Source: Lysobacterales bacterium (GTDB lineage: Bacteria; Pseudomonadota; Gammaproteobacteria; Xanthomonadales; SZUA-36). Taken from it: a stretch of DNA of 64,000 nucleotides. The position numbers and the translations under genes were made by a program. The number at the start of each line of letters is the position of its first letter. Position 1 is the first letter of the stretch. This document shows positions 6,063 through 35,368 of the stretch, one piece after another. The notes below the pieces were generated by a model. That model was not told the DNA's origin, searched no databases, and saw only the letters and a list, made by a program, of their open reading frames with translations. Location: positions 62,001 through 126,000 of the forward strand of contig JABDLD010000064.1 in NCBI GenBank assembly GCA_013001885.1. The letters run 5' to 3'.

Positions 6063-6611
6063 ATGACAGCGAACGGTAAAAATACTGCGTTTGCAAAGCT
6101 GCTCGAATATGAGAAGCGCAGCACGCACTTCTCACCTGGTGCACGCAGCGGTAGCGGGCCCTCCGAGGAATGGAGCGGCGTGACATTCAGCGTCGGCAAT
6201 ATCCGGATGACCTGCAATATCGATCGCATCGGCGAAATACTCCCCTGTCCGCAACCAACCCCCGTTCCGGGCGCCAAGCCCTGGATCATCGGGCTGGCAA
6301 ATGTTCGCGGAGAGCTGCTTACGGTCGTGGACCTGGCCTGGTTCCTGACCGGAATCAGAACCCCGCTTACCGCCCGTAACCGGCTGTTGGCCACCAGTCT
6401 GAACAAAGCGCCGATCGGATTGCTGATTGACGAGGTGTTCGGGCAGCGGCATTTTTTGGACAGCGACGCGGTGCCGGCTGAACTCGAAGAAGACTCTTTC
6501 CTGGGTGAGGTCGTAAGCAAGCAACACAACCTGGGCAACGAGACCTGGCAGGAGCTGAACCTCGATCAACTTTTTAATTCAGCGGAGTTTCTGAATGGCG
6601 CGGCGGAATAA
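6063..6611 (+). CDS. pilI: PilI-like CheW adaptor protein
   Basis: A 182-residue CheW-domain protein that should couple the PilJ receptor to the ChpA kinase. The CheW fold begins around residue 40 with WSGVTFSVG and includes the typical [14 protein letters not shown] segment. The ATG at 6063 is preceded by AAGGGA and is preferred over the GTG at 6051. It follows pilG by 50 nt and precedes pilJ in the order known from Pseudomonas and Xanthomonas type IV pilus chemotaxis clusters. Confidence 0.86.
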
Positions 6612-6654
6612 ATCACGGCCAGGCAAAGGCCGTTCGCGTCAGGGAGGCTTCCTG

Positions 6655-8736
6655 ATGAGGCGAGATAAAGGGCAAAAGAACATGACATCGACCAATTTCA
6701 AGCCCGCTACACAACAAAAGTCCGGGCGTCTGTACGCGATGGTCGGATTCCTGGTCCTGCTGCTGACTTTTGTGGCCGTTACTTTTTTCCTGATCACCAA
6801 GGAAAGCCGCAACGAGCAGGAGTGGATCAGGCTGTCTACTGATCTCCAGGTACATTCCCAACAATTGGCAAAATCAGCCGCAGAGGCCGTTGAGGGAAAC
6901 AATGCCGCTTTCGTTCAGCTCGGAGACTCTGCCGGCATTATTGCCGACGCCGTGGCCACGCTGAAAAATGGCGACTCACTGCGCTCTTTGCCTCCCCTTC
7001 CCGGCAATATGACCGAGACCCTGTCCGGGCTGGATAAAGTCTGGTTGCGGATGGAGGTGAACGCAAACAGCATTCTTGACCGCGAAGAACTGGTTCTGGA
7101 TCTCGCTGAAGCAAGCAAGTCTTTCATCAATGTCATTCCTGAGATACAGGATCTCACGGATGAGGCTGTGCGGGAGCTGACCAAGAGCGGAGCACCCAGT
7201 AACCAGATGTTCGTGGCCGGACGGCAACTGGTATTGTCCGACCGGATTCTGCGCCATCTGAAAGAAATGTTGAGGGGCGGATCCGGATCTGTCGCCGCCG
7301 CTGACAGTTTCGCCCAGGAAATTACTTTCTTTGAGCAGACCATGGATGCGCTGCTCAAGGGCAGTCGCAGCGTGGGCGTTGAACAGGTTAAAAACCCGGC
7401 GGCCGCCAGGGCGCTGAACAAGGCGCGGAAGATCTATGACGATGCGCGGCCGCAGCTGGACACCGTGCTGTCGTCTTCCAGCGACATCCTTGCCGTTCGC
7501 GGCGCCGCGGATGAATTGTTCGTGGACAGTCTGGATCTGTTCAATTACTCACGCCGCGTAGCCGATGATGTGCTCCACCGTTCGGGAACGCGCCCGTGGC
7601 CCTCGTTGTGGTCCGGCTCAGTTGCGCTGATCGTGATCCTGGTCGCCATTGCGCTGATGGTAAGAGCGTTTCTGAGCACTGAGAGGCGCCGGGCGATCGA
7701 AGCCGGCATGCAGAACCAGAAAAACCAGCAGGCCATCATGCGCCTGCTGGACGAAATGAGCTCGCTCGCAGACGGCGACCTCACGGTAAAAGCAACGGTC
7801 ACCGACGACATGACGGGCGCGATTGCAGATTCAGTCAATTTTGCCGTCGAACAACTGCGTGAGCTGGTCACCGGCATCAATATCACCGCGCAAACCGTTT
7901 CCGAATCTGCCAACGATACGATGGCCACAACCGGAAAGCTTGCAATTGCTTCCAGCCAGCAGGCTGAACAGGTCCGCGAAGCCACCGACACGATCAACGA
8001 AATGGCGGAATCCTTCGACGGCATGGCGGCACGCTCTCGCGAATCGAGCGAGGTCGCACAACGCTCCGTCGCGATCGCCCACAACGGTTCGCAAAGGGTG
8101 CAGCAAACCATCAAAGGCATGGACACTATCCGCGACCAGATCCAGGAAACCTCCAAGCGCATCAAGCGGCTGGGGGAATCTTCCCAGGAAATCGGCGATA
8201 TCGTAGAGCTGATTAATGGAATCGCCGAGCAAACCAATATTCTTGCGCTCAACGCCGCCATCCAGTCCGCCTCGGCTGGCGGGGCCGGGCGGGGATTTGC
8301 GGTCGTTGCGGACGAAGTGCAGCGCCTTGCTGAACGCGCCACCAACGCCACGCGTCGTATCGAGATGCTGGTGCAAAACATTCAGGCCGACACTTCAGAG
8401 GCGGTGGTTTCAATGGAATCAACCACTTCCGAAGTGGTCGCAGGCGCCGAAAAAGCGGAAGACGCGGGCGAGGCGCTACAGCGAATCGAGTCCGTGTCGA
8501 AGGATTTGTCCAAGCTGATCGAAGAGATATCCCAAGAAGCCCAATCCCAGTCGGAAACGGCAACCCGGATTGCGGAGCAGATGAACAGCATCAGGGATGT
8601 GTCGATCCAAACATCTGAAGGCAGTGATCAAACGGCGCAATCCATGGGTAAACTCGCCGACCTGGTCCATAAGCTTCGGGAGTCCGTCGCCGATTTCAAA
8701 CTGCCGAATACCGAGGATCGCGGAAATGATGCTTGA
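6655..8736 (+). CDS. pilJ: PilJ-like methyl-accepting chemotaxis protein
   Basis: A 693-residue inner-membrane chemoreceptor (P. aeruginosa PilJ is about 680). Helices at about 29-47 and 317-341 bracket a large periplasmic region of the PilJ N-terminal type, followed by a HAMP-like linker and a signalling hairpin whose tip, [14 protein letters not shown], lies near residues 523-536. [18 protein letters not shown] follows. The ATG at 6655 has AGGGAGG 7 nt upstream; an ATG at 6595 inside pilI is open but has no such site. Its stop overlaps the chpA start. No cheR-like pilK gene follows, so adaptation by methylation is uncertain. Confidence 0.9.
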
Positions 8737-11700
8737 AGGCTCCAACAGCAGTTCGGCAATCAAGTGGGTCCGCGAGGATCTGGACGAATGCCTTGCGAAC
8801 GTCAGGGAGCACCTGGAAGCATTTGCTGACAACATGTCTCAGCGTGATCCGCTGATCGCAGTGCAGGAGGAGCTCGAGCAGCTCAATCTCACTTTTCTGA
8901 CGATGGAACAGAGCGGCGCCAGCATCCTGACCGATGAGATGATCGCTGTCGGCGGCCATATGCTGCACAACGGAAATGCAAATTGTGAGGAATCGCTCAA
9001 TGCGCTGACCGATGCTGTTATCGTACTGCCCTCCTACCTGGACCGGCTCCAGGCCGGTCACGAAGACCTGCCGATCCTGCTTTTACCTACCCTGAATGAG
9101 CTCAGGGCGACCTATGATGAAAAACTGATGTCGGAGGGCTCTCTGTTTGCTCCCGAGCTTGATGTCATTGTTCCTGAACTCAGCGGCAGTGAAGCGGATG
9201 CGATTGCAACATCCGATTTCGATGCCTTTGCCCGGCGTATTCGCAGCCAGTACCAGGGCGCCCTCCTTGGTTGGTTGAAAGAGCAATCCAAAAATGACCT
9301 GATTCTGCCCATGCAGGAAGTTTGCCGGACGCTGTACATACGCCTGGGCCGCAACGAACTGCGGCGCTTGTGGTGGATCGCCGAAATGGCTATGCGCGGA
9401 CTGCGTGACGGCGCTATTGATAATGATCTGCCGCTGCGGCGCCTTTTCGCCCGACTCGATCTCTCTCTGAAAACCATGGCGGAGCACGGCGAGAAAGGGC
9501 TTTCTTCCGACACGATCACCGCACTGTCCCGCGCCTTGCTTTTCTATGCGGCGCAGGCGCGACCGGGCAGTAAAGGCACCGACCTTCTGCGTGAACGGTT
9601 CAAGCTCGAAGAGCTGATTCCGGATCGTGACGCCCTGCTGCGGGCACGCGGCGCCGTCACCGGAAGAGACGCCGGGCTGTTCCAGTCGATCGGTGATGCC
9701 GTGCGTGAAGAGTTGAGCCAGGTCAAAGACACGCTGGATATGGAGCTGCGAACCGGGCGCGTCGACGCGGAGCAACGCGACCACAGCAAGAATTCTTTAC
9801 GCCAACTGGCGGATACTCTGAATATGCTCAATTTGCCGGTTCCGGCAAGAGCGGTTGAAGACCTGCTGCCGGCGCTGGAAAGCACCGACGGCGTGACCAA
9901 CATGGACCTTGATTCACCGCTGCTGGCGCTGGCGCAAAAACTGCTCGAGGTCGAGGCCATTCTCGATACCCACATTCGCTTGCTCGGCGAGCCGGTCGAG
10001 GCGGAAAAAGGCAGTGACTTGATTTCTCTGCCGCCGCAGGAGCTGAGGCACATATTCAGCCAAATGCTGGATGAGTGCGTCAGCGACCTGCATGAAGTAC
10101 AGGAAGCCGTCAGGAAACGTCTCGGCGGCGAGGCGGAGGCGGATTATCTGCGGCCGCTGGAGCGTATCTCGGGGGCGCTTGGCGTCGCCTCGCTGCAAGA
10201 GATTGCCAGCCTGACCAACAAGCTCGGGCGTGTTTTGAACGCATCCCTGGGAGCACTCGGTAAGAGCGAACAAAACCAGGTCGAAAATCTCGACGCGATA
10301 ACGGACGCGATCGCCGCACTCGAACTTTACCTCGCCGGTTGCCGCGATGAACAAAACAGCAGCCTGCAGTTCATCGAAATAATGCAGCAGAGGCTCGACG
10401 GCCTTGCGGAAGCCAGCTCGAGCGGCGAGCCGGTTCCGGCAACGACCATCGTGCTTCCGGAGAGGCCGGAACCGCCGCCAGCGGCCAGTCCGACTGTATC
10501 GGCTCCCGCAGCCGGCGCGCCTGACATTGACCCGGCGATGCTGGGCATATTCCTCGAGGAGTTTGATTCGGTGCGCGGCCAGCTTCGACAGAATTTTGCT
10601 GCATGGATGGATAACCCGGAAGACGAGAAGGTCGCTACCGAGATCAGGAGAGGGTTTCACACCCTCAAAGGCAGCGGCCGCATGGTGGGTGCCGTTGAAA
10701 TCGGTGATTTTTCCTGGCGCATCGAGGAACTGCTGAACAAATTCCTGGAGAATCGGATTTCGTTCAGCCAGGCGGTAGGCGATACGATCAGCCTGGCGAT
10801 TGCGTCGCTCGATGACCTGCGTGCGCGCCTGCTCGGCGAAGACAGCGAGCTTGAAGAGTCCGGCATCAAGAGCCTTGGCAATTATGCAAGACTGCTGGCC
10901 GGAGGAACGGTTCCCAACCCGAAAAAACTTCAGGGCGCCCTGCCGGCCTCTTTGCTCAGCCGTATCGGTACACAGGCTGATCTGGCCGGGCCTCCGCCTG
11001 CACAAACTCCGGATGAATCACCGTCCGGCGAGGAGACGCCACCGGCACCGGATGGGGATCCGGCCCTGCAGGAAATCATGGTCACTGAAATCCGAGACTG
11101 CGTTGCCGATCTGAAAACTTTTGTAGAGGGCCTTGCCGCCGATGCAAAACAGCCCGTCTCGCGTGACCTGGTGCGCGCTGTGCATACGCTGGCCGGGACT
11201 TTCGCCATGGCGCCCGTCGGCCAGGAAAGCAAAGTCGCCCGGGCACTGGAAGGCTACCTGGAAACGCGCATTGACAACGACCGGCCCGCTTCAGAAGCAG
11301 CCGTGACGGCTGCCCAGACCTGTCTGCACCGGTTCCAGCAGCGGCTGTATATTCTCGAGCAGGGCCACAGCCCCGGCTATCCGCTTGATGATGAAGAATT
11401 GCTGAGCGAACTCGCCGGGCTCGCAACCCCCGATGCACAGATCACGCCGGAAAAAGCGCCTGCGACTGATGCTCCTGAATCGGCTGCCGAGCAAAAACCG
11501 GAAGAGAAAGCTGTACCGCAGGAAGATACACAGCAGGAAGCTGGCGCCATCAAGATCGAGAAAGGCAGCATCATTTCCATCTTCCTCGAGGAAGCCGTGG
11601 AGGTACTGGAACGCTGCGATACGCTGCTCAACACCTGGCGTGACAAGCTTTCAGATCGCAAGCTGGTGCAGAACCTGCAACGGGAGATCCATACATTCAA

Positions 11701-14038
11701 GGGCGGCGCCCGCATGGCCGGCCTGGAGGGGCTTGGCGACCTCAGCCACGCCATGGAGACACTTCTCGAGCACATCGCTTCGAATCGGCTGGAGGCCACG
11801 GTTGCGGCCGTCCAGGCCCTGGAAGAGGGCTGCGACAGGCTGAACATCTGGGTTGAGCAACTGCAATCCGGAACTTTGCCGCAAACCGGCGATGCGCTGG
11901 AACGATTCGACCAGAAAACCGGGGCGCTGCACCTGCCGCAGACGGGCGAGTCGCTCGTAACTGATGAAGCGGTCGAGACGCTGGCCGCAGAAACGGAAAG
12001 CACCGACGTCGCATCTGAAGCGAAAACTCCGGCAGAAGCTCCGCAGCCACCCATTTCCGAAAAAGGGTCAACTGCTAAAGAGCCGCCGGTGCCCGCACCC
12101 AAACGGCGCGCCCGCAAAAAGACACCGGGGCGACGGCAACAGGAACGCGTCTTCAGAGACATCGAGGACCGTCCGATATCTGCGGGAGAAGACTCGGTTT
12201 CCGGATCTCAGATCCGGGTCGCTGCCGACCTGATGGACAAGCTGGTCAATTACTCCAGCGAGATCAGTATTTACCGTTCGAGGCTGGAACAACAGCTCGG
12301 CCACGTGCGTTACAACCTGAAAGAAGTCGATGTCACCGTGCAAAGGCTGAAAGAACAGCTGCGCAAGATGGACATGGAAAGCGAGGCGCAGATGATGTCC
12401 CGCTACCAAAAAGCGTCGACCAAGAACACGACCGAGTTCGATCCGCTGGAATTGGATCGCTTTTCCAACATGCAGCAACTTTCCCGGGCCCTGGCCGAGT
12501 CGGTCAGCGACCTGCTCAACCTGCATGAAATGCTCGACGATTCGGTTCGCCAGGCAGAAAGCCTCCTGACCCAGCAGTCCCGGGTCAGTACGGAAATGCA
12601 GGAAGGCCTGATGCAGACGCGGATGACTCCTTTCGGCAGCGCCGCGCCGCGGCTGCGCCGGGTCGTTCGGGCCGCCGCTGCAGAGACAGGAAAGCTTGCG
12701 CGGCTGCAGCTGCGCATGGCAGGTTCCAGCGACCAGCTCGATCGCAACGTACTGGAGCGCATCACTGCGCCGCTCGAGCACATGTTGCGCAACGCGATCG
12801 CACACGGAATCGAAATACCGAAAGTGCGGCGCAAGGCGAAAAAAGCCGAGGAAGGCAACATCACGGTCACCGTTGAAGCTGAGGCTACCGAATTCGTGAT
12901 ACGGGTTGAAGACGACGGCGCCGGCGTCAACCTGGATGCAATACGCAAGCGGGCGGTTGAACGCGGCTTGATGGATAAAGATGAGGATCTCGACAGGCAT
13001 CAATTGATGCAGTTCATCCGCAAGAGCGGATTTTCCACCTCCGATACGGTAACCGGCCTGGCCGGGCGCGGCGTCGGCATGGACGTGGTCAACAGTGAGA
13101 TCAAGCAAATCGGCGGCTCGATGGAGATCGACTCCGAGCCTGGCAAGGGTACCTGTTTCACCATCCGTATCCCGTTCAGCCTGGCCGTGATGCAGGCCAT
13201 TGCGGTGAATGTCGGTGACCGTGTATTCCAGGTCCCGCTAAACAGTGTCGCCGGCGTGACCCGCCTTTCGCCATCCGAATACGCGGCCCTATTGAAAAGT
13301 GAGACACCGACCTGTCAGTTCGCCGGAGAAGATTTTGCGTTGCTCGAACTCGAGCCGCTGCTGGATGCGCCTCCGTTACCGCTCGACAGCGGCAATGTCT
13401 CCCTGCTGATGATTCGCGCAGGCGACCACCAGGCGGCGTTCCGGGTGGCCGGCCTGCAGGGCCACCAGGAAGTCGTGGTCAAGCCCGTTGGCCCGCAAAT
13501 CAGCAGCATCCCCGGAATCCTCGGCGGCACTATCGGAGCTGACGGCCAGGTCATGATCATTCTCGACATGGGGCCAATCATTCGCCGCGGGCTGGAACGG
13601 GCCGAGCAGCCTCCGGAAGTGGTCGAGGAGCCGAAAGAAGTCACCCGGCAGCCGCTGGTCATGGTGGTGGACGACTCGATTACGATGCGCAAGGTAACCT
13701 CGCGCGTACTGGATAATCACTCCATCGAGGTGATGACTGCACAGGACGGTATCGATGCCATCGAGCAGCTGCGCGACCGGGTTCCGGACCTGATGCTGCT
13801 CGACATCGAAATGCCGCGAATGGACGGTTACGAATTGCTCGAGCACGTTCGGGCCGATGCGCGCTTACGGCATGTTCCTATCGTGATGATCACTTCGCGG
13901 GCAGGCCAGAAACACCGCAGAAAGGCGAGGGAAGCGGGCGCGAACGGATATCTCACCAAACCGTACCAGGAACCGGAACTGGTAGAAAAGGTAAGCGAAA
14001 TGCTGGACATTGATTTAATTCCCAGAAGGTCGGACTGA
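8726..14038 (+). CDS. chpA: ChpA/PilL-like hybrid histidine kinase with several Hpt domains
   Basis: A 1770-residue CheA-type kinase for twitching motility. From the N-terminus: a long helical region probably related to FimL (1-600), Hpt domains with His645 ([11 protein letters not shown]), His820 ([10 protein letters not shown], lacking the usual Lys) and His989 ([11 protein letters not shown]), a Pro/Glu linker, a dimerisation helix pair, the ATPase domain (N-box LRNAIAHG near 1352, GRGVGMDVV near 1446), a CheW-like domain, and a receiver from about 1642 with Asp1693 as phospho-acceptor. P. aeruginosa ChpA is about 2470 residues with eight transfer sites, so this version is shorter. The ATG at 8726 overlaps the pilJ stop by 11 nt. 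Confidence 0.92.
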
Positions 14039-15351: not shown

Positions 15352-16113
15352 ATGGAATCTTTTTTGAAGTCTGCGCTGGCGGCAGCGCGCGCAGCGTCAG
15401 TCGAAATCCTGCGTTTTTACCGCGGTGATTTCGAAGTGGAGCTCAAGGCTGACCAGACACCGGTGACAGTGGCGGACCGAAGAGCTGAAGAGATCATCCG
15501 CGGGATGCTGCTGGCGGATTTTCCGGATCACGGCTTCTTCGGGGAAGAAGGCGGCATGCAGCACGAAGACGCCGATTACCTGTGGCTGGTTGACCCCATC
15601 GACGGAACCAAGAGCTTTGTCGGCGGCTATGGCATGTTCTCCACCCAGATAGCCTTGATGCACCGGAACCGCCTCGTGTTGGGGGTATCCTCCGCCCCCG
15701 CCGCCGGTGAGGTAGCCTGGGCCAGCCGGGGCTTGGGCGCCATGCTGGATGGTGTTCCGATGCGAGTCAGCGCCAAAACTTCGCTGGCCGAAGCATCGGT
15801 CTCAACCGGCAACCTTCAATCAATGGCACGCTCAGCCCAATGGGCCAACCTCGGAAGAATTTTTGCGCAGGTAAACAGAACAAGGGGTTATGGCGACTAC
15901 TACCACTATCATCGCCTGGCCGCCGGCCAACTGGACGCGGTGATCGAGTCAGATGTCAACATCCTCGACATTGCCGCCCTCAGTGTGATCGTTGAAGAAG
16001 CGGGAGGCGTATTCACCGATCTCGAAGGCCACGCGCCCGGCCTGCGGACGACCTCCGTTCTTGCTGCCGCGCCCGGCCTTCACGGCCAGCTGCTGGATTT
16101 GCTCAATGAATAA
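15352..16113 (+). CDS. Inositol-monophosphatase family phosphatase (possible histidinol-phosphatase HisN)
   Basis: A 253-residue lithium-sensitive-phosphatase fold enzyme. Metal ligands are visible as Glu65-Glu66 in FGEEGG, Asp81 and Asp84 in DPIDGTKSF, and the late Asp in NILDIAA. Such enzymes dephosphorylate inositol monophosphate, histidinol phosphate or related small substrates; the sequence looks more like HisN-type than SuhB-type, but this is not decisive. The stop overlaps the nudE start by 8 nt. A second family member, cysQ, lies two genes downstream. Confidence 0.82.
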   Translation: MESFLKSALAAARAASVEILRFYRGDFEVELKADQTPVTVADRRAEEIIRGMLLADFPDHGFFGEEGGMQHEDADYLWLVDPIDGTKSFVGGYGMFSTQIALMHRNRLVLGVSSAPAAGEVAWASRGLGAMLDGVPMRVSAKTSLAEASVSTGNLQSMARSAQWANLGRIFAQVNRTRGYGDYYHYHRLAAGQLDAVIESDVNILDIAALSVIVEEAGGVFTDLEGHAPGLRTTSVLAAAPGLHGQLLDLLNE

Positions 16114-16666
16114 AGAAAAAACGTTACCTCTGGTCCATAGCCGGCAAGATCGCGATGCGCGGGAAATGTACCGGATAGAACAAATCGACCTGGAATTTTC
16201 AAACGGCGAGCGCCGTTTGTACTACCGAATGAAAACCCGCGGGCTTGGTGCGGTCATCATCGTCCCGATGCTGGACGATAAAACGGTGCTGCTGGCGCGC
16301 GAGTATGCCGCGGGACTGCATCACTACGAGGTTGGATTGCCAAAAGGCCGCCTGGAGGAAGACGAGTCGATTCTCGATGCAGCGCAGCGCGAATTAAAGG
16401 AAGAAATAGGCTACGGCGCCAGGAACCTCGAAATCCTGACCAAGCTCAGCCTGGCTCCGGGGTATATGACCCACATTACGCACATCGTCCTCGCGCGTGA
16501 CCTCTATCCAGAAAAGCTGGAAGGGGATGAGCCGGAAGAGCTCGAGGTCGTGCCCTGGCAGATCTCTGATCTGACCTCACTGACCGATCGGGAGGACTGC
16601 ACCGAAGGAAGAACCATCGCCGCCCTGTATATCGCCAGGGACTATCTAAGGAAGGAGAGTAACTAA
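16106..16666 (+). CDS. nudE: ADP compounds hydrolase NudE
   Basis: A 186-residue Nudix hydrolase that in E. coli cleaves ADP-ribose, NADH, Ap3A and other ADP-containing metabolites. The Nudix box is complete at GLPKGRLEEDESI...RELKEEIGY, and the N-terminal region includes the FSNGERRLYYRM strand pair. The start ATG lies inside the end of the preceding gene, and the TAA overlaps the cysQ ATG by one base (TAATG). The nudE-cysQ pair is common in gammaproteobacteria and fits nucleotide-waste clearance. Confidence 0.92.
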   Translation: MNKEKTLPLVHSRQDRDAREMYRIEQIDLEFSNGERRLYYRMKTRGLGAVIIVPMLDDKTVLLAREYAAGLHHYEVGLPKGRLEEDESILDAAQRELKEEIGYGARNLEILTKLSLAPGYMTHITHIVLARDLYPEKLEGDEPEELEVVPWQISDLTSLTDREDCTEGRTIAALYIARDYLRKESN

Positions 16667-17493
16667 TGACTGAAAGCGACCTGGGCGTATTTGCCGAAGC
16701 CATTGCGGAAATTGCCGTTGAAGCGGGAAAAGCGATCATTGAAATTTACAAGCAGGATTTCGAAGTCACCCAGAAAGACGACGAATCTCCGCTGACACAG
16801 GCAGACCTGGCCAGCAATCGCATCATTTGCGACGCCCTCGCCCACCTGACTCCCGACACGCCCATCCTGTCCGAGGAATCCTCCGATATCGACTGGGACG
16901 CGCGGGCGGACTGGACGCAATACTGGCTGGTCGATCCGCTGGACGGCACCAAGGAATTCATTGACCGCAACGGTGAGTTCACCGTGAACATCGCGCTGAT
17001 CCGCTATCACAGCCCCATCCTGGGCGTCGTTCACGTCCCGGTCACCGGAACCACCTATACCGGCCTGGTAGGTAAATGGGCCAGCCGCCACGACAAGGGC
17101 GGAGCGATGGAACATATCCGCATTCGTAAACCGTGTGCCGACCCGGTAGTGGTGGTCGGCAGCCGCTCTCATGCCAATCCAAAGCTGCAGGAATTTCTGG
17201 ACAGAATCGGAGACCACGAACTGGTAAGCATGGGCAGCTCGCTCAAGTTCTGTCTGTTGGCGGAGGGCAAAGCCGATTTCTATCCCCGTCTCGGCCCCAC
17301 CTCGGAGTGGGACACAGCTGCGGCACACGCAGTTGTCCTCGCCGCCGGCGGAAAGATCATTACGCTGGATGGAAAGCCCTTGCGCTACAACCTTAAAAAG
17401 TCCCTGCTGAACCCGGAATTCCTTGTAATAGCGGATTCCAGCAGGGATTGGCTAAGTCTGTTTTCAGATTACAGGAGCAAACGTCAATCTTGA
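16666..17493 (+). CDS. cysQ: 3'(2'),5'-bisphosphate nucleotidase CysQ
   Basis: CysQ removes 3'-phosphoadenosine 5'-phosphate formed during sulfate assimilation, giving AMP. The 275-residue enzyme has the magnesium/lithium site residues Glu70-Glu71 (SEESS), Asp90 and Asp93 in DPLDGTKEF, and the late SEWDTAAAHAV motif. It is coupled to nudE by a one-base overlap and is the last gene of the three-gene unit; a promoter and terminator for the next unit follow directly. Confidence 0.93.
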   Translation: MTESDLGVFAEAIAEIAVEAGKAIIEIYKQDFEVTQKDDESPLTQADLASNRIICDALAHLTPDTPILSEESSDIDWDARADWTQYWLVDPLDGTKEFIDRNGEFTVNIALIRYHSPILGVVHVPVTGTTYTGLVGKWASRHDKGGAMEHIRIRKPCADPVVVVGSRSHANPKLQEFLDRIGDHELVSMGSSLKFCLLAEGKADFYPRLGPTSEWDTAAAHAVVLAAGGKIITLDGKPLRYNLKKSLLNPEFLVIADSSRDWLSLFSDYRSKRQS

Positions 17494-27410: not shown

Positions 27411-27672
27411 GTTGTCTGTCTCAACTCACGTTGCGTTCGCGCCCTTCCCGTTGAGGCGCCCTCAGATCCTGATTCAGGACTCTGGTTGATCATATAGTTT
27501 GAGGCACCCCCAGTGGAAGGAAAAGATCCCTGGACCGGAGAAACAAACTGACCCTGATCATTGAACAAGTCTATTGGCCTTATCAGAAAATACTATTTCA
27601 ACTATAAAGATGGGAGGTCTATTCTTCCAAGACACGTCCGTGTATTCCCAATCGAAAGGAGGTACGAACATC
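27411..27672 (+). promoter_or_regulatory. Divergent intergenic region before rubrerythrin, with a palindrome
   Basis: This 262-bp gap lies between the minus-strand racemase-like gene and rubrerythrin and becomes AT-rich from 27540 to 27620. A 13-bp palindrome, TCCTGA-T-TCAGGA, lies at 27467-27479, nearer the minus gene. Rubrerythrin has a strong AAGGAGGT site ahead of its ATG. A short run of codons upstream and in frame with rubrerythrin (from 27574) is not conserved-looking. No promoter pair could be fixed. Confidence 0.4.
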
Positions 27673-28089
27673 ATGGCACTTAAAGGCACGCAGACCGAAC
27701 AGAATCTCAAAGACGCATTCGCAGGAGAATCACAGGCCAACCGGCGTTACCTGTATTTCGCCCAACGTGCTGATGTTGAAGGTTACAACGACGTCTCCAC
27801 CGTTTTCCGTTCCACCGCCGAAGGTGAGACGGGCCATGCTCACGGCCACCTGGAGTACCTCGAAGAAGCAGGCGATCCCGCCACCGGCCTTCCGATCGGC
27901 CCAACTGCCGACAACCTCAAGGCAGCCATTGCCGGTGAGACCCATGAGTACACCGACATGTATCCGGGCATGGCCCGCACAGCTCGGGATGAGGGATTCG
28001 ATGAAATCGCCGACTGGTTCGAGACCCTGGCAAAGGCTGAGCGTTCACACGCCAACCGCTTCCAGAAAGCTCTGGACGAATTGGACTGA
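27673..28089 (+). CDS. Rubrerythrin, single ferritin-like domain
   Basis: A 138-residue four-helix di-iron protein. Glu and His ligands are visible in [30 protein letters not shown] and [10 protein letters not shown], the pattern of rubrerythrins that reduce hydrogen peroxide. The C-terminal rubredoxin domain of classical rubrerythrin is missing, so electrons must come from another protein. It starts at the ATG following AAGGAGGT. A 12-bp hairpin separates it from the iron-sulfur protein gene; the two and DUF3501 make a recurring cassette. Confidence 0.92.
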
Positions 28090-28099
28090 ATTCTGACGC

Positions 28100-28125
28100 C
28101 CGGCCGCGAAGCTCTTCGCGGCCGG
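28100..28125 (+). other. Perfect 12-bp hairpin between rubrerythrin and the iron-sulfur gene
   Basis: CCGGCCGCGAAG (28100-28111) pairs perfectly with CTTCGCGGCCGG (28114-28125) around a two-base CT, so in practice an 11-bp stem with a four-base loop. There is no T-run after it, so it is not a classical terminator. A role in stabilising the rubrerythrin message or separating expression levels within the operon is inferred from position. Confidence 0.7.
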
Positions 28126-28153
28126 AAGTTGCCTGAAAACTAGGAGCAACACC

Positions 28154-29479
28154 ATGCGAGAAGGCAGTCTCGAGGCCCCAACACGCCACGCGCTGGATTG
28201 GACCAATCCTGAATTTTACGACGAAGAAAAGCTTCTGGCGGAAATGGAGCGCATCTTCGACATATGCCATGGCTGCAGGCGTTGCGTGTCCCTGTGCGAC
28301 GCATACCCCACGCTTTTCGATCTCGTTGACGAGTCCAGCACCATGGAGGTCGACGGTGTAGCGAAGGAAGAATACTGGAAAGTGGTCGACCAGTGCTTCA
28401 TGTGCGACCTGTGCTACCAGACCAAATGTCCCTATGTGCCGCCACACGAGTGGAACCTCGACTTTCCCCACGTCATGCTGCGGGCGAAGGCCGTTCAATT
28501 CAAGAAAGGCGAACGCAAACTGAGCCACCGGTTGATCAGCAACACGAAAATCCAGGGTAGTGTGGGCACGCTCCCGGTGGTCGGCAGCATGATAAACGCC
28601 AGTAACCGCAGTAAGACCGTGCGCAAGGTTATGGCGAAAATGATGGACCTGCATCCCGAGGCCCATCTGCCGGAATTCCATTCCAATACGCTGCGTAAAC
28701 GCGACAGGGGTCGCCAACCCGCCGGAGTAGAAACGAAAGAAGCCGGCCCGACGACCGGCAAGGTCGCTTTGTTCGCGACCTGTTATTGCAACGTGAACAC
28801 TCCCGACGTTGGCCAGGATCTGATCCGGGTTTTCGAACATAACGGTATCCCGGTGCGCCTGACCGAAAAAGAGGAATGCTGCGGCATGCCCAAACTGGAA
28901 CAGGGCGATTTGGAAACGGTCGACAAATACCGAAAAACGAATATCCCGGAACTGGTACGTTTAATTGACGAGGGTTTTGATATTGTTGCCGGCATTCCCT
29001 CCTGTGTGCTGATGTTCAAACAAGAACTGCCGCTGATGTACCCGGATGATCCGGATGTACTGAAAGTGAAACAGCATATGTACGATCCGTTCGAATACCT
29101 GGCCCACCGTCACAAAGCCGGCTTGCTGAACACAGAGTTCAAACAATCCCTGGGCAAAGTGGTCTGGCAGGTCCCCTGCCACCAGCGTGTGCAGAACATA
29201 GGCCCCAAAACCCGGGATATTCTGGCCCTGGTGCCCGATACGACCGTGCAAATGATCGAACGCTGCTCCGGGCACGACGGCACCTACGGGGTGCGCGCAG
29301 GCACATTTGAAAAGTCGCAGAAAATTTCCAGACCTGTTGTTAACCGCGTAAAGAAAATGGAACCGGACTACCTGGTGTCAGACTGCCCGATGGCCGCTGA
29401 CCAGATCGCCAATCAGCTGGAACTGGAGCACCAGGAACGGAATCCCTTGTCACTCTTGCGAAAAGCTTACGGAATTTGA
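28154..29479 (+). CDS. GlpC/HdrB-like iron-sulfur oxidoreductase
   Basis: A 441-residue protein with two N-terminal CxxCxxCxxxC-type ferredoxin motifs (CHGCRRCVSLC near 39 and CFMCDLC..KC near 81) for two [4Fe-4S] clusters, then two CCG-type cysteine-rich domains (CYCN, EECCGMPKL, CHQRVQNIG, CSGHDGTYG). This layout is shared with GlpC and the catalytic subunit of heterodisulfide reductase. It likely moves electrons between a donor pool and an unknown partner; the rubrerythrin beside it is an attractive acceptor, but that is inference. AGGAGC lies upstream of the ATG. Confidence 0.87.
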   Translation: MREGSLEAPTRHALDWTNPEFYDEEKLLAEMERIFDICHGCRRCVSLCDAYPTLFDLVDESSTMEVDGVAKEEYWKVVDQCFMCDLCYQTKCPYVPPHEWNLDFPHVMLRAKAVQFKKGERKLSHRLISNTKIQGSVGTLPVVGSMINASNRSKTVRKVMAKMMDLHPEAHLPEFHSNTLRKRDRGRQPAGVETKEAGPTTGKVALFATCYCNVNTPDVGQDLIRVFEHNGIPVRLTEKEECCGMPKLEQGDLETVDKYRKTNIPELVRLIDEGFDIVAGIPSCVLMFKQELPLMYPDDPDVLKVKQHMYDPFEYLAHRHKAGLLNTEFKQSLGKVVWQVPCHQRVQNIGPKTRDILALVPDTTVQMIERCSGHDGTYGVRAGTFEKSQKISRPVVNRVKKMEPDYLVSDCPMAADQIANQLELEHQERNPLSLLRKAYGI

Positions 29480-29482
29480 TTG

Positions 29483-30079
29483 ATGGAACATATGACGATG
29501 CACAAATTAACCCGGAAAGACCTGATGAGCCTGGAGAATTATTCGGAGCAGCGCTCCGAATTCAGGACGCGTGTCCTGGAGCATAAAAAACATCGCCGGG
29601 TCGATGTGGGTCCAAACCTTACGCTCTATTTCGAAGACCGGCTGACCATCCAGTACCAGGTGCAGGAGATGCTGAGGATCGAAAAGATCTTTGAATCTGC
29701 GGGTATCGAAGAAGAGCTCAGCGCCTACAATCCGCTGATTCCGGACGGCAGCAACCTGAAATGCACCGCCATGCTGGAGTTTGCCGACGTTGATGTGCGC
29801 CGCGACCGACTCGCTCAGCTGGTGGGCATCGAGCACCTGGTGTGGCTGCAGGTAGAAGGCCACGACAAGGTTTTTGCCATCTCGAACGAAGACCTCGAAC
29901 GCTCCACCGATGAAAAGACGTCGGCCGTCCACTTCATGCGCTTCGAGCTCACCGACCCCATGAAACAGTCACTCCGCTCCGGAGCAGGCTTGTTTTTCGG
30001 AAGTGAACACGCCGGATACCCTTATACCACCGAGGTTCCAACCGCAACGCAAAACGCATTGCTGAACGACCTGGAGTGA
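29483..30079 (+). CDS. DUF3501 family protein
   Basis: A 198-residue cytosolic protein of DUF3501. The start LTRKDLMSLENY, the RRVDVGPNLTLYFEDR segment, MLRIEKIF and the SAVHFMRFELT region are characteristic. No function is known; it co-occurs with the rubrerythrin and GlpC-like genes in proteobacteria. The ATG at 29483 begins 4 nt after the upstream stop; the ATG at 29492 is also possible. It ends before a TetR regulator that starts the next unit. Confidence 0.88.
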   Translation: MEHMTMHKLTRKDLMSLENYSEQRSEFRTRVLEHKKHRRVDVGPNLTLYFEDRLTIQYQVQEMLRIEKIFESAGIEEELSAYNPLIPDGSNLKCTAMLEFADVDVRRDRLAQLVGIEHLVWLQVEGHDKVFAISNEDLERSTDEKTSAVHFMRFELTDPMKQSLRSGAGLFFGSEHAGYPYTTEVPTATQNALLNDLE

Positions 30080-30099: not shown

Positions 30100-30144
30100 T
30101 TGACTTGAACCGTGCGCCTGATAAACTTGCTTGTTACCAACAAG
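30100..30144 (+). promoter_or_regulatory. Putative promoter and TetR operator
   Basis: A possible -35 (TTGACT, 30100-30105) and -10 (TAAACT, 30122-30127, spacing 16) are followed by the perfect inverted repeat CTTGTT-ACC-AACAAG at 30130-30144. Its size and place just upstream of the TetR gene fit an autorepressor site. The repeat lies inside the 5' part of the open frame that begins at GTG 30112, which argues that translation really starts at 30157. Confidence 0.55.
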
Positions 30145-30156
30145 TATTTTAAACGA

Positions 30157-30813
30157 ATGCCGCAACCTGCATCAGCCAAAAAGCCATCCAACCTGCCCCG
30201 CACGCAGGCAGAACGCACTGCGCTGGCTGAATCCCGGATGGTCAAGGCCGCTGTCAACCTGCTCAATAGCGCCGGAATCCAGGGCACCACCCTAGTCGCG
30301 ATTGGCGAAATGGCGGGCTACAGCCGCGGACTCGCCACCCATCATTTTGGCTCCAAGGCCGGCTTGTTCAGAACGGTTTTAAAACGCGTTTCCGCCGCGT
30401 GGAACGAAGAGCTGGTCAGTAATCTCAAGGGTAAGACAGGGTTGCAGGCCGTTACGACCGCCATCGATTCCCACCTGGCCCATGCCCTGCAGTATCCGGA
30501 AAACATCCGCGCCCAGAATATCCTGTGGGGCGCTGCGCTGGATCCGTCCTCCGAATTCAAACCGAACGTAACCGAATTCATGAGAATTCAACGGGAATCC
30601 GTCGCGGCCTGGATCAGGGGCGGGCAGGCCGCTGGGGAAATTGGCAGGAATATTAACGCCGAGCGAATCGCCGAACAGTTTTACGGCGGCCTGATCGGCA
30701 TCAACAGTCAGTGGCTGGTCAGTCCGGATTTCGATCTGGCAGCAGCCTATGAAGATTTCAAGCACAACATGGTGCGCCTTTTGAGCGCCACGCAATCAGA
30801 GGAAAGGTTATGA
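30157..30813 (+). CDS. TetR/AcrR family transcriptional regulator
   Basis: A 218-residue one-component repressor. The N-terminal helix-turn-helix spans about residues 40-70 (TTLVAIGEMAGYSRG, then ATHHFGSKAGLF) and the rest is the ligand-binding helical domain. Its gene is coupled to a thiolase gene through an ATGA overlap and heads the fatty-acid beta-oxidation genes, so it probably senses an acyl-CoA or fatty acid and represses this operon. Start chosen at the ATG (MPQPASAKK) because an operator-like repeat lies upstream of it. Confidence 0.86.
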   Translation: MPQPASAKKPSNLPRTQAERTALAESRMVKAAVNLLNSAGIQGTTLVAIGEMAGYSRGLATHHFGSKAGLFRTVLKRVSAAWNEELVSNLKGKTGLQAVTTAIDSHLAHALQYPENIRAQNILWGAALDPSSEFKPNVTEFMRIQRESVAAWIRGGQAAGEIGRNINAERIAEQFYGGLIGINSQWLVSPDFDLAAAYEDFKHNMVRLLSATQSEERL

Positions 30814-32018
30814 CCGAAGCATTCATCTTTGACCACGTCAGGTCCCCCAGGGGACGGGGAAAACAGGGCGGCAGCCTCAATTCGATTACCCCCATCAACC
30901 TGGCCACGCAGATCCTGTCCGCCTTACGCGAGCGTAATAATCTGGACACGTCCATTCTGGACGACATTATTCTAGGTTGCGTTTCACCCGTGGGCGAACA
31001 AGGCGCCAACATTGCGCGCGTCGCGGCCATCACCGCCGATTACGCAGAGAGCGTGCCGGGCAAGCAGATCAACCGCTTCTGCGCCTCGGCGCTGGAAGCC
31101 GTGAATTCTGCAGCCACGCAGGTCATGTCCGGCATGTCGGAAGCCGTCATCGGCGGCGGCATCGAGTGCATGTCGCGCGTACCGATGGGTTCGGACGGCG
31201 GCGCCATGGCGATCGATCCGCAAACCGCCTACCACGCCCATTTTGCGCCCCAGGGCATCGGCGCGGACCTGATCGCCACCCTTAATGGCTTTTCCCGGGA
31301 GGACGTCGACGCCTACGCGGTTACCAGCCAGCAACGGGCGGCGCATGCCTGGAAAAACGGCTATTTCGAAAATTCCATTATGCCGGTCGTCGATCATGTC
31401 GGCGAGGTGCTGCTCGATCACGATGAGACCGTACGGGGCGATGCCAGCATGGAATCGCTGGCAAGTTTGAACCCGGCCTTTGCCGCCATGGGCGACCAGG
31501 CCGGTTTTGACGACGTTGTGATTCAGAAATACCCGGAAGTTGAAGCCATCAACCACGTACATACCGCCGGCAACTCCAGCGGAATTGTTGATGGAGCCTC
31601 CGTGGTGCTGGTAGGCAGCGCCGAAGCGGGCAGGAAAATGGGGCTGAAGCCCCGAGCGCGTATCCGCTCTTTCGCCTCGATTGGCAGCGAGCCCACAATC
31701 ATGCTGACGGGCCCTGCCCCGGCCTCGCTGAAAGCGCTGAAGCTGGCCGGAATGGATACGCAGGACATCGATCTTTACGAGTTGAACGAGGCGTTCGCCT
31801 CGGTGGTTTTGCTGTACATGAAGCTGCTTCATATTCCGCACGACAAGATCAACGTCAACGGCGGCGCAATCGCCATGGGCCATCCGCTGGGCGCCACCGG
31901 AGCCGTTGTGCTGGGAACCCTGCTGGACGAAATGGAGCGCCGTGACCTGTCGACAGGCCTGGTAACGCTCTGCATCGGAGCGGGTATGGGCACCGCCACC
32001 ATCATCGAACGCGTATAA
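30810..32018 (+). CDS. Acetyl-CoA C-acyltransferase (3-ketoacyl-CoA thiolase)
   Basis: A 402-residue thiolase that cleaves 3-ketoacyl-CoA with CoA to release acetyl-CoA. The acyl-accepting Cys91 (RFCASAL), His358 (MGHPLGATG) and Cys388 (CIGAGMG) form the classical catalytic set. It follows the TetR gene by ATGA overlap and precedes a FadB/J-like gene by 12 nt; together they complete the last three steps of the spiral. FadA- and FadI-type thiolases are not separated by motifs alone. Confidence 0.92.
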
Positions 32019-32030
32019 AGGAATCATTCA

Positions 32031-34172
32031 ATGAACAACACCATTCAATACGCCGTCGACACGGACGGCATCGCTCTTCTGACCATCGACCTTCCCGGTA
32101 TGCCGATGAACGTTTTGACACCGGAGCTGATGGAGGATCTCGCCACGCTGACGGCAAAGGCGGCCGCTGATGAAAGCGTAAAAGGCATCGTTCTGACGTC
32201 AGGCAAAAAGGCGTTCATTGCCGGCGCCGACATCAAGGACATGGTGACCGCTTACGACCGCGGAATCTCCCACAAAGAGGCTGCGGAATTCAGCTACAAG
32301 CTGAACGAAACGCTGCGCAAAATTGAAACTTGCGGTAAACCGGTGGCCGTTGCGATCAACGGGCTGGCGCTGGGCGGCGGACTGGAAGTCTGCCTGGCGG
32401 GGCACTACCGGGTCCTGGCCAACGACACGGGCGCGGTCCTGGGCTTCCCAGAAGTCAATATCGGCCTGTTGCCGGGCGCCGGCGGAACCCAGCGAACGCC
32501 GCGCCTGATCGGATTCCGCAACGCGGCGACCATGATTCTGCAGTGCAAGAACCAGAAACCTGAAAAAGCGCTGGAAATGGGTCTCGTGCACGAGCTAGCA
32601 CCGGTTGCCGAGGTCGTGGAACGGGCCAGGTCCTGGGTTCTGGAAAAAGGCGGATTTGAGCAGCCATGGGACAAGAAAGGCTTCAGGTTCCCCGGGGGCG
32701 GGCTGGCGAGCCCGGCCACGGCGCAAACGTTCATGGGCGGCAACGCGCTGCTGGCGAAAGCCACCAAGCACAACTACCCGGCTCCGATCGCAGCCCAGTC
32801 GGCCATTTTCGAGGGGTGCGCCACGTCCTTCGACGCCGGCCTGAGAATCGAATCTCAGTATTTCGGTTCGCTGCTCGCGGGGCCGGTTGCGCGCAACATG
32901 ATGCGCAGTCTTTTTGTCAACAAAGGCAAAGCCGACAAACTGGCGCGCCGGCCGCAAGGTGTCGAGAAATCCCAGGTCAGGAAGCTGGGTATCCTCGGCG
33001 CAGGTATGATGGGCGCCGGGATTGCTTACGTTTCTGCCAGGGCCGGTATGCAGGTCATTTTGCTGGATACCTCCCAGGAGTCCGCAGAGCGCGGCAAAGC
33101 CTATTCGGAAAGCCTTCTGAAAAAGGCAATCGAGCGCGGCTACTCCACCGAAGAGAAGGCGGCGGCGCTGCTTGGCCTGATCACGCCTACAACGAATTAC
33201 CATGAACTTCAGGGCTGCGACCTGGTGATTGAGGCCGTATTTGAAAGTGTTGAAATCAAGGCGGACGTGACCACCAAAACCGAGGCCGTGGTTCCTGAAA
33301 ACTGCGTTTTCGCCAGCAACACGTCCACGCTGCCGATCACCGGACTGGCCAAGGCCTCAGAACGACCGGAGCAATTTATCGGCCTGCATTTCTTCTCGCC
33401 GGTGGACAAGATGCCCCTGGTGGAGATCATCCTGGGTGAGAAAACCAACGACGAGACAATTGCCCGCAGCCTGGACTACATCCAGCAGATTCGCAAAACG
33501 CCGATCGTGGTCAACGACAGTCGCGGCTTCTACACCAGCCGGGTGTTCAGTACGTTCACGGCCGAAGGCATCACCATGCTCGCTGAGGGCGTCAAGCCGG
33601 CCCTGATTGAAAATACGGCCAAAATGGCCGGCATGCCGGTTGGTCCTCTGGCCGTCACCGATGAAGTGACGCTGGAACTGGCCTACAAGATAGGTAAGGA
33701 AACGGCTGCGCAACTGGGCCGGAAATACCCTTCCGACCTGAGCCAGGAAGTCATTCAGAAAATGGTCGAAGTGCTGGACCGGAGAGGCAAGCGCTTCGGA
33801 AAAGGGTTCTACGATTATCCCGAAGGCGCAAAAAAACACCTGTGGTCTGGCCTGGCGGAACAGTTCCCCGTCGCGGACAAGCAGCCCGAGGTGGATGAGT
33901 TGAAGCACCGTCTCCTGATGATTCAGGCGCTGGAGACAGCGCGTTGCTTCGAAGAAGGCGTGTTAACCCATGCCGAGGACGGTGATATCGGATCGATCTT
34001 TGGCTGGGGTTTCCCGCCCTACACCGGCGGCACGCTCTCCTATATCGACACGATGGGAATCCAAACGTTTGTCGCAGAGTGCGACCGCATGGCGGCAAGC
34101 TACGGTGAGCGCTTCACGGTTTCTTCGTGGCTGCGCGATCGTGCGGAAAAGAACCAGCCCTTCTACGGCTGA
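32031..34172 (+). CDS. Bifunctional enoyl-CoA hydratase / 3-hydroxyacyl-CoA dehydrogenase (FadB/FadJ-like)
   Basis: A 713-residue trifunctional-type alpha subunit. The N-terminal crotonase domain has oxyanion motif GGGLEVC with Glu119 and [11 protein letters not shown] with Glu141 (the two acid/base residues). The NAD-binding fold starts with [12 protein letters not shown] and its catalytic His453 is in [11 protein letters not shown]. It performs hydration and oxidation before the thiolase acts; FadB/FadA-type complexes are known from E. coli. Length is close to FadJ (714). Confidence 0.94.
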
Positions 34173-34201
34173 CCTATTCAACCAATTAAGGAAACAGCGT
34201 T

Positions 34202-35368
34202 ATGAAACGCCTGATATTTGACGAAGACCACGAGATGTTTCGCGACTCGGTGCGCAAGTTCATGCAAGCCGAAGTGGCTCCCCACGTGGAACGGTGGAGG
34301 GAGCAGGGCATCTGCGACAAGGACGCCTTCGTCAAAGCCGGCGAACAGGGTTTGCTGTGCATGTGGGTCGATGAGAAATACGGCGGCCTCGGCATCGAAG
34401 ACTTTCGTTTTGAACAGATCGTCATCGAGGAGACGATGCGCCATGGCGATCTTTCGCTGTTCCTGACGCTTCACAGCCGGCTGGTTGCGCCTTACATCGG
34501 CCACCTGGGCAGCGAGGCGCTGAAGGAGCGCCTGTTGCCCCGATGCGTCAGCGGAGAAACGATCCTGGGTGTCGCCATGACGGAGCCCGGTGCCGGCAGT
34601 GACCTGGCCGGCATCAAATCGCGCGCGACGCGCGACGGCGACAACTGGATCATCAACGGTTCAAAGACCTACATTTCCAACGGCATCAACGGAGGAGCAT
34701 TCGTGGTGGCGGCCAGGACCGTTCCCGACAAGCCCCACGGCATTGGTTTGTTCGTCGTTGAAGAAGGCATGCCGGGCTTTAGCCGCGGCCGCAACCTGAG
34801 CAAAATGGGTTTGAAGGCCCAGGATACGGCCGAACTGTTTTTCGAGAACGTCCGCGTACCGGCGGAAAACGTGCTGGGTGATCCCGAAAAAGGCTTTTAC
34901 AGCCTGATGCATTTCCTGGCCGAGGAACGTCTGATCAGCGCATGCCAGGCCGTTGCGCATGGCCAGATTGCCTTCGACATCACGATGGATTACATACTGG
35001 AACGAAAGGCATTTGGCAGACCCATCGCCGCGTTTCAGAACAGCCGATTCAAAATGGCCGAGATGCGGACAGGGTTGGATGTTACTCAAACCTTTATCGA
35101 CCAGTGCGTAATGCTCCACCTGGCAGGAGAGTTGAGCGCTGACCTCGCTGCGGAGGCCAAGTACCACGCGACAGAGCTTGAGTCTAAGGTGATGGATGAG
35201 TGCGTCCAGCTGCACGGCGGCGCAGGCTATATGAGCGAATACCGGATCTCACACATGTTTGCGGACGCCCGTGTATCCCGGATCTACGCCGGCAGTACCG
35301 AAATAATGAAAGAAATCATTGCCCGCAGTATCGGGCTGGATGAGAGAAAACTGTTGAGCAGTGGCTAA
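34202..35368 (+). CDS. Acyl-CoA dehydrogenase, long-chain-like
   Basis: A 388-residue flavoprotein that oxidises acyl-CoA to trans-2-enoyl-CoA, passing electrons to an electron-transfer flavoprotein. Motifs include MTEPGAGSDLAG, the helix VQLHGGAGYMSE and IYAGSTEIMKEI near residue 361. At the position where most members carry the catalytic Glu (YEG), this protein has Ala (YAG), as long-chain and isovaleryl-type enzymes do, so the base probably comes from an EERL-type Glu near 240. It ends the beta-oxidation unit. Confidence 0.9.
   Translation: MKRLIFDEDHEMFRDSVRKFMQAEVAPHVERWREQGICDKDAFVKAGEQGLLCMWVDEKYGGLGIEDFRFEQIVIEETMRHGDLSLFLTLHSRLVAPYIGHLGSEALKERLLPRCVSGETILGVAMTEPGAGSDLAGIKSRATRDGDNWIINGSKTYISNGINGGAFVVAARTVPDKPHGIGLFVVEEGMPGFSRGRNLSKMGLKAQDTAELFFENVRVPAENVLGDPEKGFYSLMHFLAEERLISACQAVAHGQIAFDITMDYILERKAFGRPIAAFQNSRFKMAEMRTGLDVTQTFIDQCVMLHLAGELSADLAAEAKYHATELESKVMDECVQLHGGAGYMSEYRISHMFADARVSRIYAGSTEIMKEIIARSIGLDERKLLSSG

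Follow-up and report, generated by a model that had tools for sequence, protein, structure and literature searches.

An aerobic-type rubrerythrin operon of a Lysobacterales bacterium: promoter classes, a cluster-ligand signature and a probable role in peroxide reduction

The DNA considered here, the window, is a stretch of 64,000 nucleotides (nt) from contig JABDLD010000064.1 of a Lysobacterales bacterium. Between positions 27673 and 30079, its list of open reading frames (ORFs) holds three co-linear genes on the + strand, encoding a rubrerythrin without a rubredoxin domain (RBR), an Fe-S/CCG protein (RFO) and a protein of the DUF3501 family. This operon is probably a peroxide-inducible peroxidase in which RFO takes the place of rubredoxin and DUF3501 serves as a cofactor-free adaptor. 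In such a scheme, a rise in peroxide would lead OxyR, or in other genomes an Irr/PerR-type regulator of the Fur family, to turn on the single operon, and the di-iron site of RBR would reduce hydrogen peroxide (H2O2) to water. RFO, as a soluble protein related to the electron wires EtfD, GlpC and HdrB, would supply the electrons as the built-in rubredoxin does in classical rubrerythrins, and DUF3501, having no cofactor, would link RFO to RBR. A stem-loop 3' of RBR would probably leave RBR in excess over its two partners.

The name RFO and the description of this RBR lineage as aerobic-type are those of Cardenas 2016 (PMC5114695); here and below, publications are cited for the portions of their text that were available. 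The association of the three genes is known, and the window operon is an ordinary member of a known system. What is new is the pair of promoter classes, the cluster-ligand signature of RFO and the stem-loop between RBR and RFO, none of which we found described in the available portions of the open-licence literature, subscription journals lying outside that search.

Gene content and co-occurrence

By gene content, the window locus is no different from the published aerobic-type rubrerythrin cluster: a single-domain RBR, with a COG0247/CCG Fe-S protein, RFO, and DUF3501 adjoining it (Cardenas 2016; PMC7050145). The initial annotation had named the same three proteins at this place, where the ORFs are indeed found and Pfam agrees. 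Window RBR scores 240-245 bits against the sequences of four rubrerythrins with solved structures, 140-169 residues long, 176-179 bits against sulerythrin and about 106 bits against the classical rubrerythrin 1b71. It has the di-iron four-helix domain in common with classical rubrerythrin and sulerythrin; classical rubrerythrins, however, carry a C-terminal rubredoxin that is missing from the window protein, as it is from sulerythrin. Against the NCBIfam model of the classical family (NF045767) the window protein reaches 141.6 bits, below the equivalog cut-off of 200. Across the 17 genomes described below, 81 of the 138 RBR residues are invariant, among them E19, E52, H55, E89, E92, E123 and H126, which we take to be the di-iron ligands.

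Our survey covered 299 genomes of Pseudomonadota, among them that of the window. RBR, RFO and DUF3501 each mark the identical 17 genomes, and in all 17 they lie in the order RBR-RFO-DUF3501 on one strand, bearing out the recurrence in proteobacteria that the initial annotation had stated. RFO scores at least 327 bits in these genomes (next match 138) and aerobic-type RBR at least 248 (next match 162). In the other 16 genomes, RBR is 80-88% identical to the window protein, RFO 36-62% and DUF3501 36-56%. At E 0.001 or better, RBR-like matches occur in 75 of the 299 genomes; outside the 17, the two matches that were read to the end (P0001 and P0002) carry the rubredoxin characteristic of classical rubrerythrins.

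A further 80 DUF3501 loci, the best-scoring 80 of 588 and mostly beta- and gammaproteobacterial, were analyzed with RBR and RFO starts placed from profile matches. The trio stands in order in 70 of them (69 whole, one with RBR partly unreadable), six are cut by contig ends, and four are exceptions whose genomes all contain RBR. The genomes of L114 and L157 have RBR at another place; at L163 RBR and DUF3501 adjoin, RFO and a further RBR copy lying apart from them; the fourth, L168, is weighed below. The initial annotation had said that a module would be refuted if each gene were often present in the absence of the others, which is not what these counts give: 17/17/17 in the 299 genomes and four real exceptions in the further 80 loci.

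For other phyla and archaea we take the distribution from Cardenas 2016, where, among 4461 genomes, all three genes were found in 185 and RBR with DUF3501 only in 25; DUF3501 and RFO were not associated with RBR in one genome, and DUF3501 was alone in one (PMC5114695). The trio has also been reported from protist mitochondria, including those of Andalucia (Gray 2020; PMC7050145), and as a cluster in Acidihalobacter (PMC7760498) and, beside oxyR, in Sideroxydans (PMC7852563). The association is thus published (PMC5114695, PMC7050145); for the biochemistry, which the initial annotation knew of no description of, none was found in the available portions of the literature either.

The 97 loci show no conserved fourth gene. 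One neighbour cluster reaches 56 loci and is made up, for the most part at least, of ORFs that run antisense to the trio (58 of the 82 examined); the next family to recur is present in 16. A wider conserved operon was considered and dropped: as judged by first residues, none of the 28 largest neighbour families was recognisable as a neighbour of the window trio (CoA-transferase, TetR, thiolase and others). The lack of a fourth gene bears on the electron-bifurcating module that the initial annotation had offered as an alternative. CCG proteins partner the bifurcating HdrA in methanogens; here, no flavin-binding domain was found at E 0.001 in any of the three proteins, and no further conserved gene accompanies them. 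We give bifurcation almost no credence.

Promoter classes and published induction

The promoter set comprised 86 stretches of 300 nt upstream of RBR, and the null sequences were first-order Markov resamples rather than exact shuffles. Sites were scored against the OxyR operator consensus. The OxyR-type box was first seen by eye in the window, so that the other 85 promoters are its test, and the palindrome TTAGA-N5-TCTAA was found in the 86 promoters themselves, so that its contrast comes from the controls only. The control genes were called mechanically as ORFs, so that a part of them is spurious, and they have a mean G+C of 0.58 against 0.52. No p-value given here, for promoters or for gaps, is corrected for relatedness.

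With 13 of 16 positions matched, the window box outscores every other site in the 64 kb, the runner-up having 11/16; compared with first-order Markov sequences, it has p 0.002 within its intergenic stretch of 260 nt. Twenty of the 86 promoters have a site of at least 13 and 36 one of at least 11, frequencies to be compared with 0.04% and 5% in Markov sequences. The palindrome is perfect in 33/86 promoters and matches at 9 or 10 of its 10 positions in 42/86, where 0.7 would be expected. At thresholds of 11 and 9, the two boxes coincide in only four of the 86 promoters (Fisher ~1e-9, again uncorrected for relatedness). One or the other is present in 74/86 RBR promoters as opposed to 29 of 870 other upstream stretches of the same loci, of which 23 have the OxyR-type box at 11 and six the palindrome at 9. 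Stricter controls give 25/460 (genes of like G+C) and 7/203 (genes of recurrent families), and removal of similar promoters leaves 83, of which 18 have an OxyR-type box of at least 13 and 41 a palindrome of at least 9. At the genomic level, these predicted boxes argue strongly for control by regulators that sense peroxide or iron.

The neighbouring genes were picked by eye and then tested, so that the counts are lower bounds. An oxyR-like gene adjoins the trio in at least 7 of 97 loci (six upstream, one downstream), a catalase in at least two (L025, L163) and ahpC with ahpF in one (L020). The genome of the window has a single oxyR-like gene (298 bits against a cut-off of 329; next match 69), no PF00199 catalase was found in it, and its one PF00141 peroxidase, on contig C45 (3-1340), runs to the contig end.

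The palindrome class opens a different reading, in which the operon serves iron management rather than peroxide, with RBR as a ferroxidase or iron buffer and RFO and DUF3501 reducing or moving iron. TTAGA-N5-TCTAA looks like the boxes bound by Fur-family regulators of the Irr/PerR type, and Irr-like genes adjoin the trio at two loci (L028 and L125, the former above the Irr cut-offs). Irr boxes have been described near mbfA and a rubrerythrin-like gene, whose product is a protein different from RBR (PMC3413700). Set against this are the other large promoter class, which is OxyR-type and accompanied by oxyR-like, catalase and ahpCF neighbours, and published induction by H2O2 (PMC4175613, PMC2739297). 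RBR, moreover, is a small four-helix protein and is not known to form cages. On balance, we regard an iron-management operon as unlikely.

The induction data come from two organisms. In Burkholderia pseudomallei, 100 uM H2O2 raised bpss1837 (hypothetical), bpss1838 (ferredoxin) and bpss1839 (rubrerythrin) by 3.37, 3.31 and 3.36 on a log scale, and this induction was listed beside that of KatB, AhpC and KatG (PMC4175613). In Sulfolobus, the rubrerythrin SSO2642 and its neighbours SSO2643 (annotated as glpC), SSO2644 and SSO2645 were induced by H2O2 on a microarray (PMC2739297). Together with strict co-occurrence, the promoter boxes and the oxyR-like, catalase and ahpCF neighbours, these reports give good support to the dedicated peroxide-reducing module that the initial annotation had suggested, and we prefer it to iron management as the account of the operon.

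Cluster ligands and relatives of RFO

Two ferredoxin motifs can be read by eye in RFO, C38/41/44/48 (CX2CX2CX3C) and C81/84/87/92 (CX2CX2CX4C), where Pfam scores are at or under the cut-off (22.2 of 22.2; 23.8 of 27), and the CCG family PF02754 matches in two stretches. Fifteen cysteines are invariant in 94/94 RFO sequences: the eight of the ferredoxin motifs, C210, C242, C243 and C284 of the first CCG site, and C342, C371 and C411 of the second. At the second site H343 and H374 are equally invariant. Position 372 is Ser in 92 sequences, Ala in two and Cys in none, so that this site has no CC pair, and position 414, which corresponds to its last CxxC cysteine, is Ala, Gly or Ser; the window protein reads CSGH and C-P-M-A. 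From the CxnCCGxmCx2C pattern, RFO has kept four of five cysteines at site 1 and three of five at site 2 and does not have the two full sites of HdrB. Of the two cysteines of the HdrB CxxC, site 1 lacks the first and has C284 in the place of the second. Two [4Fe-4S] motifs and two CCG domains had been read in this protein from the outset; the motifs are clear by eye and both CCG domains stand as folds, the second, however, without its CC pair and final CxxC cysteine.

GlpC, subunit C of the anaerobic glycerol-3-phosphate dehydrogenase, is the closest curated family. Its relation to RFO spans the whole length (hhalign probability 100) and its site-1 pattern is the same. The difference lies at site 2, where GlpC has CCG and CxTC and RFO has neither. 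Nine GlpC-like relatives (L081-L089) all have both motifs there, and the four that were scored all exceed a GlpC cut-off; window RFO falls below the cut-offs of both GlpC equivalogs (TIGR03379, 152.4 of 279.9; NF008369, 221.3 of 278).

The fold was judged from a Nitrosomonadaceae protein in which RFO and DUF3501 are naturally fused (L216). Its AlphaFold model has a predicted local confidence (pLDDT) of 88, a predicted template modelling score (pTM) of 0.70 and a linker of pLDDT below 50. This model, which is not the window's own RFO, matches EtfD with Z 22.0 and a root-mean-square deviation (rmsd) of 3.9 over 367 residues, in keeping with a ferredoxin-plus-CCG fold. It also matches LutA (Z 24.8) and HdrB (Z 19.5-20.0); HdrB and LutA share the CCG fold, their matched chains comprising the CCG part only, and the CxnCCGxmCx2C pattern of HdrB is not retained in RFO. 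An EtfD-type membrane domain with heme b was not found, the L216 model aligning to EtfD 242-750 only and the 441-residue window RFO aligning along GlpC (no dedicated membrane-helix prediction was made).

The closest parallel to the second CCG site is provided by EtfD of Mycobacterium smegmatis (9ojn). Like RFO, this protein has a pair of ferredoxin-type domains and a pair of CCG domains. In its first CCG domain, Thr replaces the second Cys and four cysteines bind a linear [3Fe-4S] cluster; the other cluster is noncubane, with a His ligand, and was called non-catalytic by the authors, who suggest that EtfD may be adapted to air by full coordination and shielding (PMC13083937). The portions of that paper available do not mention rubrerythrin or GlpC. 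In both proteins the second Cys of one CCG site is replaced, by Thr in EtfD and by Ser in RFO. They differ in that the replacement falls in the first CCG domain of EtfD and in the second of RFO, in that the linear cluster of EtfD sits on four cysteines (PMC13083937) where site 2 of RFO has three and nearby His, and in the membrane part, which RFO lacks. Since only three cysteines are left at site 2, a histidine or other ligand would have to complete a cluster there. We tentatively raise the possibility, itself rather doubtful, that the second CCG domain holds a linear [3Fe-4S] cluster, or one on three cysteines and His374 or His343, and that RFO is a soluble, oxygen-adapted wire feeding rubrerythrin with electrons from flavoproteins (ETF) or the quinol pool.

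These ligand patterns also bear on whether RFO might instead be a disulfide reductase of the HdrB kind, acting on a thiol partner, with RBR merely co-regulated. The whole-length relation to GlpC and the HdrB fold match would suit such an enzyme, as would the alignment of C284 at site 1 with a CxxC cysteine that is bridging in Hdr (PMC13083937). Hdr, however, uses two such sites (PMC13083937), whereas in RFO site 2 has no CC pair in 94/94 sequences and no last, bridging CxxC cysteine, site 1 is without the first Cys of its CxxC, and RFO never occurs without aerobic-type RBR in the 299 genomes. A disulfide reductase seems to us a poor prospect, less probable still than iron management, and we infer that RFO is an electron carrier, which would be the donor to RBR.

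DUF3501, the stem-loop and the locus

The predicted model of window DUF3501 (pLDDT 95.8) matches 3fjv, a solved structure with no function assigned, with Z 27.3 and rmsd 1.2 over 189 residues. Beyond 3fjv all matches have Z of 6.7 or less; many are beta-sandwiches by name, perhaps reflecting a common arrangement, and no function was drawn from the fold. In 89 sequences, 19 residues are invariant and no cysteine occupies an invariant or near-invariant column, a sequence pattern that suggests no cofactor role. The alignment used for the RFO-DUF3501 comparison may include stray DUF3501 rows, as their local alignment showed. Natural RFO-DUF3501 fusions account for 5 of 38 Nitrosomonadaceae hits (L214, L215, L216, L218 and L225), the linker being disordered in the L216 model. 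DUF3501 stays next to RBR at loci whose RFO is absent or distant, and elsewhere it is fused to RFO; these arrangements suggest a cofactor-free adaptor tying RFO to RBR.

DUF3501 also occurs on four plasmid records, all of them Burkholderia replicons of 2.4-3.5 Mb; the one inspected has the whole trio. Nineteen IMG/VR contigs (L233-L251) contain DUF3501 as well, perhaps as the host flank of proviruses or as host DNA.

The RBR-RFO and RFO-DUF3501 gaps of the window are 64 and 12 nt long, and the first holds the stem-loop. This hairpin was first noticed in the window, and the gap controls were not cleaned as the promoter controls were. A perfect stem of at least 8 bp is present in 48 of 84 RBR-RFO gaps, against 2% of Markov sequences; among gaps of 40-200 nt it occurs in 46/76 RBR-RFO gaps and in 13/119 other same-strand gaps (Fisher 2e-13). 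Where present, the stem begins a median of 19.5 nt 3' of the RBR stop, and it is followed by at least four T in eight in 19 of 48 cases, the window not among them. Folding z-scores of the gaps are modest (mean -1.7, 25/84 under -2), and the stem count is the better contrast. The stem-loop recurs across genomes by position, not by sequence. On a plain reading it would be a leaky terminator, or a hairpin protecting the mRNA, that leaves RBR in excess.

Several observations pull the other way from a peroxidase fed by RFO under peroxide control. A single-domain RBR (L051, genome G247, 162 bits), 58% identical to that of the window, occurs in a genome without RFO or DUF3501. At L168, in a record titled Arenimonas malthae, RBR lies beside DUF3501 and no RFO was found in the genome; as in the 25 genomes of Cardenas 2016 (PMC5114695), RFO is not indispensable there. 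Genome-wide, OxyR-type sites at 13 number three and those of the reversed control pattern four, so that support for the window box rests on its place and on the other RBR promoters, and 12 of the 86 promoters have neither box at the thresholds used. Five of the seven neighbouring oxyR-like genes were scored by NCBIfam, and all have OxyR as best match below the cut-off of 329 (229-298 bits, the gene of the window genome included); the other two (L102, L154) are of LysR type by Pfam only. Transcripts of bpss1837-1839 are lower in a B. pseudomallei sigma E mutant, so that their induction is also sigma E-dependent (PMC4175613). These genes are likely the trio, since 3fjv is a DUF3501 of the same strain. 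An RFO-DUF3501 interface read from the L216 fusion model was dropped on account of its pTM and disordered linker, and with domain placement uncertain no interface backs the adaptor role. We found no biochemical assay of the trio in the available portions of the open-licence literature. Weighing these points, we still hold the peroxide-inducible peroxidase to be the probable reading.

Table 1. Coordinates of the operon and its predicted signals in the window.
Feature	Position	Strand	Remarks
OxyR-type operator, ATAG-n7-CTAT-n7-ATAG-n7-CTAT	27560..27596	.	13/16 positions; begins 113 nt 5' of the RBR start codon
RBR, aerobic-type rubrerythrin without rubredoxin domain, 138 aa	27673..28089	+	Pfam PF02915, 2e-29
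RBR-RFO stem-loop, 12-bp perfect stem	28100..28125	+	folding z -4.7 for 28087-28156
RFO, Fe-S/CCG protein, 441 aa	28154..29479	+	PF02754 (CCG), 8.6e-16
DUF3501, 195 aa	29492..30079 (from ATG; TTG 29480 is an alternative start)	+	PF12007, 1.1e-69

Three other groups of genes in the window were noted. Positions 30112-35368, 3' of the trio, encode a TetR regulator followed by what by eye are a thiolase, a 3-hydroxyacyl-CoA dehydrogenase and an acyl-CoA dehydrogenase, proteins of fatty acid oxidation. Also by eye, 6595-14038 encodes a methyl-accepting-type protein and then a CheA-like protein of 1813 residues that contains a receiver domain as well as several Hpt parts, and 15352-17493 holds two adjoining inositol-monophosphatase-like genes, the second CysQ-like.

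The system to which this operon belongs is a widespread aerobic defence against peroxide and is considered to date back to the ancestral mitochondrion (PMC7050145). The regulatory and cluster-ligand evidence presented here makes its electron path testable, and the site-2 signature of RFO allows the electron source of a rubrerythrin without rubredoxin to be tested on one protein. If RFO is indeed an oxygen-adapted wire with such a cluster, the operon would represent an aerobic peroxidase system free of heme and thiol, inherited by mitochondria too.

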